41,955 nt of DNA from a cyanobiont of Ornithocercus magnificus (GTDB lineage Bacteria > Cyanobacteriota > Cyanobacteriia > PCC-6307 > Cyanobiaceae). Made by a program: the position numbers and the translations under genes. The notes beneath the pieces are model-generated. The model saw only the letters and a program-made list of their open reading frames with translations, made no database searches and was not told the DNA's origin. Positions 17,353-39,724 of the stretch are shown here, one piece after another (position 1 is the first letter of the stretch; each line of letters opens with the position of its first letter). The DNA lies in contig BIMP01000003.1 of assembly GCA_007996965.1 (NCBI GenBank), forward strand, positions 1 to 41,955, given 5' to 3'.

Positions 17353-17648
17353 TTTATTATGAACTAAATAGTTTTATATCTGCACCAAGCTCGGTGTAAC
17401 TCGAGATCGATCTTTAAAAATGTAGTCTTTCCTACTGTCATTTAGGCCTGCAACGCGTACGGTGCTAGCCAATAGCCGCAGGAGGGAATTGAACCCTCCT
17501 CACTTATCCCAAATACGGCTGTTAAATAGAAATGTCCTCTAATATTTAGGTATGGTTAGAGCAACTTCGCCGCGAATTAGTTAGAGAAAGCTGTCTCACA
17601 GTTTGCGCTTACAGCAGGAATTCAGGGTTGCCAACCGATGATGTGGTT
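17353..17648. promoter_or_regulatory. Non-coding stretch between hli and capsid
   Basis: No gene is visible here apart from the tRNA-like element. A weak resemblance to the phage promoter exists at about 17428-17447 on the minus strand (TGACAGTAGGAAAGAC against CACACTATAGGAGAAAG), which would suit a strong capsid promoter, but bases are missing from the core and I do not call it. The leader presumably carries the capsid ribosome binding site, which is not obvious. Confidence 0.35.
17473..17520 (-). ncRNA. tRNA acceptor/T-arm-like minihelix element
   Basis: On the minus strand AGCCGTA (17520-17514) can pair with TGCGGCT (17480-17474), and between them GGAGGG / TTCAATT / CCCTCC (17499-17481) forms a T-arm with a canonical 7-base T loop. 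A 14-base linker takes the place of the D and anticodon arms. The result resembles the acceptor-T half of a tRNA with no anticodon. No encoded CCA follows. It could be a tRNA mimic, the 3' part of a tRNA captured as an attachment core, or a processing hairpin. The pairing is seen; the role is unknown. Confidence 0.45.
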
Positions 17649-17792
17649 TTACCAAATTCCGGGAATTAGCTGGCCTGTTACAGCATAGGCACCTAGAGCT
17701 GCGACCATGCCGACCATTGCCGCGTAGCCGTTCAGTCGCTCGGCCCGAACGAGATAACGCTGAACTTCTGTAGATTTGAAATAGCTGAACAT
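17649..17792 (-). CDS. hli: High-light-inducible protein (HLIP)
   Basis: A 47-residue ORF starting at ATG 17792 and stopping at TAA 17651-17649, between scaffold and capsid. Residues 17-47 read AERLNGYAAMVGMVAALGAY then AVTGQLIPGIW: the single chlorophyll-binding helix motif ExxNGxxAMxG followed by the typical cyanobacterial TGQ(I/L)IPG ending. HLIPs bind chlorophyll and carotenoid in the thylakoid membrane and protect photosystem II; many cyanophages carry them to keep photosynthesis working during infection. One oddity is Tyr at position 23 where the motif normally has Arg (NGR), the residue that ion-pairs with a chlorophyll-ligating Glu. Ten bases separate it from the scaffold gene, so it is probably expressed with virion genes. 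Confidence 0.9.
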   Translation of the reverse strand: MFSYFKSTEVQRYLVRAERLNGYAAMVGMVAALGAYAVTGQLIPGIW

Positions 17793-17801
17793 AATTTAGA
17801 G

Positions 17802-28320: not shown

Positions 28321-28380
28321 GCAGTGAGTGTGAAGGGATAGAGAAAATAGAGGAGAGTAGAGCTCGCGGGAATCGACCCC

Positions 28381-28405
28381 TTTCTCCTATAGTGTGGCAC
28401 TTGAA
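28381..28405 (-). promoter_or_regulatory. Phage RNA polymerase promoter (after the polymerase gene)
   Basis: On the minus strand CCACACTATAGGAGAAAG matches the core of the T7 promoter (CACTATAGGGAGA). The same sequence, with flanking TTTTC(A/G)AGTG, occurs at 39685-39709. By analogy initiation is at G 28387. It lies 11 bases beyond the polymerase stop codon, where T7 places its first class II promoters, and would drive the DNA-metabolism genes. Confidence 0.85.
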
Positions 28406-28415
28406 AAAAGCCAGA

Positions 28416-31024: not shown

Positions 31025-31573
31025 ATGACGAAACCCAAATCACAGGATGTCCCGACAAAATTAGCTGCTTGTGCTGATACAGAAAGAGGCAGAGATGTAT
31101 TAAAGCCATTAAAAGAGCCCAGCACACTAATACAATCAGAAGATGGCTTGATCTCGAACCAGCAGTTGTCATTGGCCGGGCCCTACTCAGGATCAGAAGA
31201 TAGCAATTTTTATTTTTCTGGCGAAAATTATGCGTGTGGAAGCATTTACCGTCTCAGTCGCGCAGTCGCTGTGTTTAAGGAAGCATTAGGATACGAAGCG
31301 ACGACGCATCTACTAATGACATTTCTGTATATAGCTAGAAATGACGGTTGTAGCATGCAGGATCTGGAAAGGGCGACTGGAGCTACAGGTGCTAGTAATT
31401 CTCGAAACACTGACTGGCTGTCATATGGCAGAAATGCTGTAACCAATAACGGGCTGGGCCTGATTAAAAAAGAGAGGCCACTAAATCAGAAAGATAGGAG
31501 AAAAATAGTACTGAGCCTGACATCCAAAGGTAAGGAGTTGCTGAAAACCCTATCGGAAGTTTTATATCGCTGA
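31025..31573 (+). CDS. MarR-like winged-helix regulator
   Basis: 182 residues from ATG 31025, chosen because AGGAG sits at 31011-31015 with 9-base spacing; the frame is open from 30899 but without a ribosome site. The C-terminal 95 residues look like a MarR-type winged helix: TTHLLMTFLYIARNDGCSMQ, DLERATGATGASNS, LGLIKKERPLNQKDRRKIVLSL and TSKGKELLKTLSEVL (the wing and dimer helix). The first 80 residues are unlike MarR. It is one of the few plus-strand genes and is divergent from the RNA polymerase, so it is a good candidate for a repressor or early regulator. MarR-like proteins are also reported in other T7-like cyanophages. Its stop lies in a 29-bp tandem duplication. Confidence 0.8.
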   Translation: MTKPKSQDVPTKLAACADTERGRDVLKPLKEPSTLIQSEDGLISNQQLSLAGPYSGSEDSNFYFSGENYACGSIYRLSRAVAVFKEALGYEATTHLLMTFLYIARNDGCSMQDLERATGATGASNSRNTDWLSYGRNAVTNNGLGLIKKERPLNQKDRRKIVLSLTSKGKELLKTLSEVLYR

Positions 31574-31597
31574 AAACCCTATCGGAAGTTTTATATC
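31540..31597. repeat. 29-bp perfect tandem duplication at the end of the MarR-like gene
   Basis: Bases 31540-31568 are repeated exactly at 31569-31597. The first copy encodes the last residues of the MarR-like protein; the stop TGA is inside the second copy. Because 29 is not a multiple of three, the duplication altered the C-terminus. Its perfection suggests a recent event. Confidence 0.95.
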
Positions 31598-31656
31598 AAT
31601 GAAGGGCAGAGATGCGGTTCTCTACCAACTTTAAGAAAAGCAAGCAGTTAAATCAT

Positions 31657-32196: not shown

Positions 32197-32427
32197 ATGC
32201 TTGCTGTGTAGAATTTGTGTAGAGTGGACGACATTTTCAAGGTAAGATGTGGCGTAGGATTAGGGGTGCCGATGGTAAAGAAGAGATAGCTGGTTGAGAT
32301 CCAGTGTAGCACACAAGTCGCATTACCGATCCCTGCCAATCGCGGGCTGTCTGATCTCTGCCGAGACATAGAGGTCAAAGAAAAGCTTTACATTAAGTAT
32401 CAGAAAACTACTCAGTGCCAATGTTAA

Positions 32428-32589
32428 TTAACCGTTAGTGCAAACGTCCAGTAGGTCATCGTGTGCCTGAGCAGACATGAGCTGTATCAGCTCCCGACGA
32501 TGTGTGTGGTTTTTTACCTCGTCTATCAATTTTACAGCCTTTTGCATAACTAAGGCGTCTAATGTGTTTTCAATTGCAAGGTGATTCAT
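32428..32589 (-). CDS. Small helical early protein (53 aa)
   Basis: ATG 32589 to TAA 32430-32428. The 53 residues (MNHLAIENTLDALVMQKAV, then KLIDEVKNHTHRRELIQLM) form an amphipathic helix-rich protein with a balanced composition unlike a chance frame. The leader (TTCACACTCATTC) resembles the one before the gene starting at 28320. No function is suggested. Confidence 0.5.
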   Translation of the reverse strand: MNHLAIENTLDALVMQKAVKLIDEVKNHTHRRELIQLMSAQAHDDLLDVCTNG

Positions 32590-32731
32590 GGTTTTTTAGA
32601 ATGAGTGTGAATTTAAAGCGTGTGGCAGTGTGTGTATTACTTATAACTGTCTCTTAAGTAAGAGAAAACGCAAAACCGTTCCAAGACTTTTCTATCGAGA
32701 AGCTTGGACGACGTAGAATAACTAACTAGGA

Positions 32732-32752
32732 CCCGGCGCGAGGTCGGGTCTG
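32732..32752 (-). terminator. Weak terminator-like hairpin
   Basis: Downstream of the 32764 gene, GACCCG and CGGGTC arms (6 bp) surround a 9-base loop. The following bases are only moderately U-rich, so termination is possible but not certain. Confidence 0.3.
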
Positions 32753-32763
32753 CGTACGCATCG

Positions 32764-34492: not shown

Positions 34493-34859
34493 CGGTTTTC
34501 TCAGAGTGACCAGCTCAGCTTAGCAGTCACCTCCTCTTTTAGGAATAGGAGTGGTTACTAGTGATGGCCTGAGAGTTGCTTGCTAGTAGATGCCAAACCG
34601 CAGGGCCAAGGCTTATTGAGAATCAAGAGAGGCGCACCATTTGCAACAAGAGGGGCAGGACATTCCGCCGCCGGCCATCTGATCTCTGCCGAAACACAGC
34701 CACCCCACCCCACCCCTAACACTTTTACGGCGGCAAGCAACCCCTATGGGGGCCGGAGCGCACTGCCCACTGCGAGAGGGGTGCGACAAATTTTTTTGGC
34801 AAATTTTTCGGGCTTACATTCCAGCGAGCTCAATCATTTTGCTCCTGTCATTTTTGTTT
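34493..34859. promoter_or_regulatory. Leader and gene-free stretch upstream of the integrase
   Basis: No gene is supported. Features: GTGAC (34506-34510) / GTCAC (34526-34530) hairpin in the integrase leader; a C-rich run at 34700-34716 that on the minus strand gives GGGG-T-GGGG-T-GGGG-T-GG, a possible G-quadruplex; a 21-base motif at 34679-34699 shared (19 of 21 bases) with 32351-32371; and an AT-rich segment with two CAAATTTTT copies at 34788-34808. Confidence 0.5.
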
Positions 34860-35024
34860 CTAATAATTACTTCGTTTCCTTCTTCTCTCTTTACTCGTAA
34901 AATAAAGACTCATTGCTTTCCTGAACGCCTCTCCCTTTGTTTCTCCGCTTTTTTCTATGTATGAGTCAAGGGCGTTGGACAAGTCGTCGCCCATTCTTCC
35001 TTCAAAGCGGTGATTTAGAGTCAC
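34860..35024 (-). CDS. Ribbon-helix-helix protein (54 aa)
   Basis: A short gene starting at GTG 35024 and stopping at TAG 34862-34860, 27 bases after the previous gene. A GAGG sits 7 bases before the GTG. The 54 residues read TLNHRFEGRMGDDLSNALDS then YIEKSGETKGEAFRKAMSLY and a basic end TSKERRRKRSNY: one strand, two helices, with the RxAM(S/A)LY second-helix pattern seen in the RHH proteins at 38474 and 39025. It should be a DNA-binding dimer. Confidence 0.65.
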   Translation of the reverse strand: MTLNHRFEGRMGDDLSNALDSYIEKSGETKGEAFRKAMSLYFTSKERRRKRSNY

Positions 35025-35051
35025 GATACCGCCTCGAATAAATAGCCATGC

Positions 35052-39240: not shown

Positions 39241-39342
39241 CTAGGTAGCTATTGATTTGGAAAGGTATCTATAATTAGGTTTATCTTTTTACTTCTGTCG
39301 AAGTATTCTTTATCTGCCAGAGTTAAAGGTTTAACCGGCCTG

Positions 39343-39360
39343 GACCCCCCTACCCCCCTA
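39343..39360. repeat. Double C6-TA block
   Basis: The plus strand reads ACCCCCCTACCCCCCTA. On the minus strand it gives two G6 runs separated by TA, which could form an intermolecular G-quadruplex or pause replication. It lies in the gene-free region just before the first early gene. Confidence 0.7.
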
Positions 39361-39400
39361 TGGGTTGATACTTATCGTTTTCCTCGCTGAATCTAGACAA

Positions 39401-39427
39401 GAAGCCTTTCAGGTATCGAAAGGCTTC
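39401..39427 (-). terminator. 10-bp hairpin, possible terminator of the structured leader
   Basis: GAAGCCTTTC (39401-39410) and GAAAGGCTTC (39418-39427) pair perfectly around a 7-base loop. On the minus strand the hairpin is followed by TTGTCTAG, a weak U-containing tail. It could end the transcript that begins at 39691. Confidence 0.45.
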
Positions 39428-39429
39428 CG

Positions 39430-39690
39430 GCCACCATGCCATTCCTCACGGGCCTCACTAGATTTCTCTAGTGCCGTACTTATGTACGGGGGTATGCTGC
39501 ACCCAGTTACGTAGCTGACTCTTCTACAACACTGGGTGCACCATGTTGTAGATACTGGGTGTACACCACCAACCCAACACTTGGGCGGTGATGTGGCTGT
39601 CGCAGGACAGGCATGCTTGCGCCTTAATAAGGGTGCGATACCTCTGCCGTATTAAGGTCCCGAGAGAAGAGAGAGGTAAACCTCTTTCTC
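39430..39690 (-). ncRNA. Highly structured RNA leader downstream of a phage promoter
   Basis: From the phage promoter start (39691) to about 39430 the minus strand has no ORF but many perfect inverted repeats: AGAGG/CCTCT (39671-39685); CCTTAATA/TATTAAGG (39622-39629, 39650-39657); CTACAAC/GTTGTAG (39524-39530, 39545-39551); TGCACCCAGT/ACTGGGTGCA (39498-39507, 39531-39540); CCGTAC/GTACGG (39474-39489); and CACTAGA/TCTAGTG (39456-39473). Two of these overlap, so alternative folds exist. It could be a non-coding RNA, a replication or packaging element at the genome end, or processed leader. The pairs are seen; the role is unknown. Confidence 0.55.
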
Positions 39691-39709
39691 CTATAGTGTG
39701 GCACTCGAA
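39685..39709 (-). promoter_or_regulatory. Phage RNA polymerase promoter (after terminase)
   Basis: The minus strand reads GTGCCACACTATAGGAGAAA, identical over the core to the promoter at 28381-28405 and close to the T7 consensus. By analogy the start is G 39691. It lies 16 bases past the terminase stop, the position of T7 phi-OR, which fires across the concatemer junction and supports replication and packaging. Confidence 0.85.
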
Positions 39710-39724
39710 AATGGGATACAAGGT

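Follow-up and report, generated by a model that had tools for sequence, protein, structure and literature searches.

What occupies the 484 bases that separate the large terminase gene of a T7-like phage from the next gene, when no convincing gene lies between them? The question arises in the window analyzed here, the whole 41,955 nucleotides of contig C3 from a 1.88-Mb, 16-contig genome. The window has a T7-like gene order on the minus strand, running from an RNA polymerase (30809-28416) through replication, head-tail adaptor, capsid and endolysin genes to the terminase large subunit, TerL (41509-39725), whose closest cultured relatives, in cyanophages such as S-TIP37, P-SSP2 and P-SSP7, are ~52% identical. 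The polymerase gene is the only one of T7 type in the genome, which also encodes, according to its translations, psbA and an hli-like gene and therefore belongs to a cyanobacterial host. An integrase gene is present at 34492-33926. Both ends of the contig fall in the gene directly upstream of TerL, a gene that is repeated in the genome, and comparison with copies on contigs C2 and C5 shows ~270 bases to be missing between the two ends. The contig is otherwise continuous, the integrase region included, which suggests that the phage is not integrated there.

The gene-free region (39724-39241) ends at a gene for a 71-amino-acid, ribbon-helix-helix-like protein on the same strand (39240-39025). 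Its sole internal open reading frame of at least 50 amino acids is a 65-amino-acid TTG frame, and indels that make the length of the leader vary between the copies described below speak against coding. In the gene list used here, comparable gene-free stretches occur at 34493-35051 and, at 449-567 bases each, at 17353-17801, 31126-31656 and 32197-32763. The first-pass annotation had taken the ribbon-helix-helix gene to be the first early gene, which is doubtful: the genes at 39240-35052 may be right-end genes. Scans for sigma-70 promoters, intended to tell early from right-end genes, gave no match in either the region after TerL or that at 34493-35051. The explanation that we favor, and regard as probable, is that the region is a phiOR-type promoter and origin followed by a structured leader, and that satellite-like islands of phage origin have retained or borrowed it.

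A promoter and a predicted folded leader after the terminase gene

A T7-class phage promoter lies directly 3' of TerL (39713-39684, minus strand) and reads toward the right end. Its core, ACACTATAGGAGAAAG, is exact at 39699-39684, with a predicted start at 39691. When up to three mismatches were allowed, the sole other match in the contig was at 28395-28380 on the same strand, directly after the RNA polymerase gene (0.32 expected by chance per contig). The two promoters are exact repeats, the region around the first is 94% identical to 28376-28407 over 32 nt, and they are the only strong T7-class promoters in the window. The leader that follows the post-polymerase copy is not unusually folded (z -0.4). 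In the T7 record (NC_001604), phiOR is annotated after gene 19 and before gene 19.5 and the terminal repeat; in both phages a T7-class promoter after the terminase gene points at the last genes and the terminal repeat, and the earlier comparison with phiOR is supported by this arrangement. T7 has no long hairpin-rich leader at phiOR. PhiOR itself is already known; what the present sequences appear to add is a folded leader at this place, with conserved pairing.

The predicted transcript from 39691 to 39400 folds far better than shuffled sequences (z ~-6.5, 0/150), and the fold of 39430-39241, downstream of a 10-bp hairpin, is unremarkable (z = -1.0). Hairpin H1 (39691-39666) stands at the predicted transcript start and is followed by H2 (39657-39622), H3 (39595-39563, ACAUCACC...GGUGGUGU), a pair of alternative hairpins (39552-39494), a 7-bp hairpin, CACTAGAGAAATCTAGTG (39473-39456), and the 10-bp hairpin H5 (39427-39401), which marks the end of the strongly folded part. 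The first-pass count of at least six perfect inverted repeats was slightly too high, but perfect hairpins do exceed chance: requiring arms of 7 or longer and loops of 3-14 leaves three (39552-39523, 39473-39456 and 39427-39401) vs 0.29 in shuffles (p ~0.003), and relaxing the arms to 6 or longer gives five vs 1.2. The two repeats described as mutually exclusive are so, since the overlapping 21-nt arms 39494-39514/39524-39544 compete with the 9-bp stem 39523-39531/39544-39552, and both reported G6 runs were found.

These predictions support a structured RNA that the phage polymerase would transcribe. The earlier idea of an RNA between a terminator and a promoter, as a new type of element, is not supported, because the promoter and the hairpins have one orientation, promoter first and leader after it, and because the terminator is unsupported: H5 is present as a 10-bp hairpin, but it was not flagged as a terminator, and the C2 copy keeps the stem without a T-run. 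The same observations bear on the possibility that the locus encodes a separate, abundant non-coding RNA that is ~290 nt long, stops at H5 and acts in trans, for example by assisting packaging or by targeting host or satellite RNA. The restriction of the strong fold to 39691-39400, the position of H5 at its end and the covariation described below would all fit such an RNA. We nevertheless consider it improbable, given the nature of H5, the wide differences between the C5 and C2 copies in the middle part, and the presence of a gene in the same direction immediately afterward.

According to the phiOR-type explanation, the gap is a post-terminase control region in the same place as T7 phiOR, which serves as a promoter and secondary replication origin. 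The phage's T7-type RNA polymerase would start at ~39691 and read toward both the right end and the genes at 39240-35052; the first ~290 nt of its transcript would form a structured leader (H1, H2, H3, the alternating hairpins and H5) ahead of the ribbon-helix-helix gene. The site is probably also a transcription-primed origin, since it is one of two strong polymerase sites and the other follows the polymerase gene immediately, at the position of the primary origin in T7. T7 packaging uses transcription toward the genome end, and the promoter after TerL would supply the right-end transcription that packaging needs.

Pairing in genomic copies and in relatives

Contigs C2, C5 and C12 of the same genome carry pieces of the phage at 70-96% identity. 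A module with three parts in phage order (TerL 3' end, promoter position, leader) is found on C2, on C5 (two copies) and on C12, where the promoter is degenerate; a model of part of the leader, searched against the whole genome, revealed no strong further copy. In all three contigs the last ~120-190 bases of TerL are kept at the DNA level, with stops or frameshifts.

Compensatory changes, which the first-pass annotation had named as the test of the structure, were found in these copies from one genome: at least nine base pairs have changed on both sides and still pair, six of them in H1 and H2 and three in H5. H1 is present in C3, C2, C5 and C12, with three such pairs. H2 also has three; its sequence has been replaced while its pairing is kept in C12, in C5 and partly in C2. 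The three in H5 are in C2. Of the other elements, H3 lies in a block common to C5 and C12, the stem of the 7-bp hairpin recurs in C12, and the alternative hairpins are missing from C2 and C5. When the C3, C2, C5 and C12 sequences were aligned with the promoter as anchor, 92.6% of the cells at the 17 pairs of H1 and H2 were paired, compared with 84.1% in shuffles (0/500), which gave 2.8 double-changed pairs, and with 50-64% when the structure was slid. The leader fold is strongest in C3 (z -6.5), followed by C2 (-3.4) and C12 (-2.9), and that of C5 (-0.9) is no better than shuffles. The double changes suggest that pairing remained under selection once the copies had diverged, and the leader structure is well supported, although short of proven because the set is small, with four sequences from three lineages, all of one genome. 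A 520-base block on C12 (L074:5315-5835) is 96% identical to window positions 39479-38960 in a neighborhood of ~70% identity, which we read as a recent exchange between phage and island.

We also compared 66 IMG/VR loci that have a TerL relative. Most have a TATA-like element and a hairpin within ~10-30 nt of the TerL stop, and a motif, GAAGGGTGGAC, occurs once each in 54 loci in all, including P-SSP7, S-B28 and S-TIP37; in loci L005 and L006 a gene lies between TerL and GAAGGGTGGAC. The stems beside this motif vary yet pair: at four pairs beyond the closing G-C, 162/188 cells are paired, vs 130.5 (sd 2.9, maximum 141) for the same stems with shuffled partners, an excess that sequence relatedness inflates. 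Like P-SSP7, S-TIP37, S-B28 and ~50 IMG/VR relatives, the window has a hairpin, H1, immediately downstream of TerL, where the transcript is predicted to begin. Unlike the P-SSP7-type relatives, in which the spacer is mostly ~110-230 nt and GAAGGGTGGAC is invariant, it has a spacer of 484 nt, and GAAGGGTGGAC is absent from both the window and the island copies, so that the two hairpins are homologous in position alone. The leader therefore seems to share place and general design with the hairpin of the relatives, not membership in its family. The invariant GAAGGGTGGAC hairpin of P-SSP7-type podoviruses may itself represent a distinct RNA or DNA motif.

Neither the gap nor the relatives' hairpin has a match above the gathering score in Rfam 15. 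The leader, together with the covarying hairpin of most P-SSP7-type relatives, thus points to an RNA or DNA element that has been overlooked in abundant marine phages. RNA model R1 had three weak matches in the relatives, all directly after TerL, and one marginal match in 121 genomes; model R2, whose structure is poorly predicted, had weak matches only, among them H1 of C12 at E 0.56. A blastn search of the region against cultured phages returned TerL matches only, a search at the DNA level through 300 genomes from the family gave only short, weak matches outside the genome itself, and a TerL search of the genome-contigs collection gave none. Among pattern scans of IMG/VR, that for CACTATAGGAGAAAG found 97 contigs, about the chance expectation, and that for the G-run block discussed below found none.

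Candidate positions of the virion ends

The first-pass annotation had also suggested that the gap holds the virion end or concatemer junction. A terminal-repeat signature was derived from 14 boxes in the IMG/VR relatives and from T7, T3, gh-1, Syn5 and P-SSP7, five phages whose ends are known or annotated (those of P-SSP7 from PMC3350473). We take the Syn5 and T7 records to begin at the genome end and also take their repeat lengths as given. The signature has two parts: a C/G box (C5-N-G5) near nt 25-31, counted from the left end, and an ATCTGTT-type site that closes the repeat on the right. This site was seen in T7, T3 and Syn5, in gh-1 as ATCTGTA and in P-SSP7 as ACCTGTT. The IMG/VR relatives contain 46 boxes vs 3.8 expected, and 14/46 have ATCTGTT within 300 nt vs 1.6% expected for each; where genes could be placed, most of these boxes come after TerL, then a small gene and one resembling talC.

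A C/G box occurs both in P-SSP7, where the terminal repeat is 206 bp (PMC3350473), and in C3. That of P-SSP7 is canonical and comes after talC, with ACCTGTT at the right end, whereas the C3 gap has neither. The gap holds only a degenerate box, CCCATAGGGGGG at 39364, within a G-run block, CCCATAGGGGGGTAGGGGGG (39364-39344, minus strand), and no ATCTGTT-type site was found in 39724-38500. The window also differs from the T7 right end in that 4.2 kb of accessory genes come after the gap. The one canonical box in C3, CCCCCATAGGGG, lies at 34752-34741, in the second gene-free region (35051-34493, minus strand) just before the integrase gene. With 0.62 expected per strand, chance could readily yield one such box, but C2 and C5 have conserved both the box and the 30 nt upstream of it. 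The G-run block was first read as the terminal-repeat box of this phage; comparison with the relatives favors ~34.75 kb. We put the chance that the virion end lies near 34.78 kb at about even, and give somewhat more of the remainder to other places than to the gap.

The suggestion of a junction in the gap is correspondingly weakened, and an end there now seems unlikely. In such an arrangement the repeat would run from ~39391, ~30 nt before CCCATAGGGGGG, to ~39240 or into the next gene, with the upstream hairpins aiding cutting or completion of the end. In its favor, the G-run block, which C2 and C12 have retained, resembles the box; CCCATAGGGGG matches the T7 box over 11 nt, H5 is just upstream of the predicted end, and phages with known ends have the repeat between TerL and the early genes. 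Against these points stand the missing ATCTGTT-type site, the conserved, gene-free canonical box at 34752-34741, and the accessory genes that relatives, P-SSP7, Syn5 and S-TIP37 have between TerL and the repeat or the end of the record. The second gene-free region contains GATTCTCAATAAG as well as CCCCCATAGGGG, and the Syn5 left end contains TTATTGAGAATC and TATTGAGAATC.

Phage-derived islands

Contigs C2 and C5 encode integrases and a serine recombinase, together with defense genes (methylase-Mrr, SIR2, KAP and AbiU2), and C2 appears chromosomal because it holds the only M32 peptidase gene in the genome. TerL is broken on both. The gene directly upstream of TerL, which is split in the window between 41955-41579 (minus strand, the C-terminal 124 amino acids) and 3-248 (the N-terminal part), has five intact homologs, two on C2, two on C5 and one on C7, with dN/dS of 0.15-0.23. 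We refer to it as the terminase-small-position gene; the name is by position only, since the 299-amino-acid protein showed no homology to known small subunits. It gave only weak replication-initiation O-like matches, and it did not match the proteins encoded upstream of TerL in the relatives.

The main rival explanation for the islands is that they are decayed prophages of common ancestry. The leader would then be an ordinary untranslated one, in which the hairpins only protect the mRNA 5' end, and the C2, C5 and C12 copies would be relics kept by descent and not by function. The broken TerL genes and the C5 leader, which is not significantly folded, are consistent with decay. In addition, on both C2 and C5 the sequence that follows the polymerase gene (28.3-27.8 kb) runs straight into 39.9-39.7 kb, and this common junction of 27.8 kb to 39.9 kb means that the two copies are not independent. 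The double compensatory changes, which indicate selection on pairing, and the five intact terminase-small-position genes with their low dN/dS are harder to reconcile with relics, and we judge this explanation to be a serious competitor that is still rather unlikely.

The phiOR-type explanation assigns the islands a role, in that those carrying the module could be switched on by the polymerase of a helper phage during infection. The presence of the same module beside defense genes suggests a satellite system for T7-like cyanophages. A more far-reaching version, in which replication or packaging through the right end requires the leader RNA or its DNA/RNA hybrid in cis, and in which the islands are true satellites that hijack a T7-like cyanophage by means of promoter, leader and end box, is speculative and seems to us unlikely. 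Our literature search found no paper on satellites of T7-like cyanophages, which is not proof of absence. The islands resemble PICMIs (PMC10803314) in residing in a host genome, in having an integrase or recombinase and defense genes, and, we infer, in depending on a helper phage. Unlike PICMIs, of which PICMI115 lacks terS (PMC10803314), they carry the helper's own promoter and leader, the terminase-small-position gene and the box.

Two small contigs were examined as satellites and have host-type genes, with no promoter or leader. C11 (13409 bases) has a 77-base terminal repeat that is unique in the genome, so it may be a circle of 13332 bases; it encodes a nitrate-reductase-like protein (narB), molybdenum cofactor genes and the C-terminus of a terminase-small-position protein. 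C13 (7197 bases) contains a 4517-base unit repeated at 100% identity that carries psbA, one hli-like gene and a member of the terminase-small-position family. A gene of this family also lies in a 5019-base tandem repeat on contig C2 of genome G266, which belongs to another genus of the same family.
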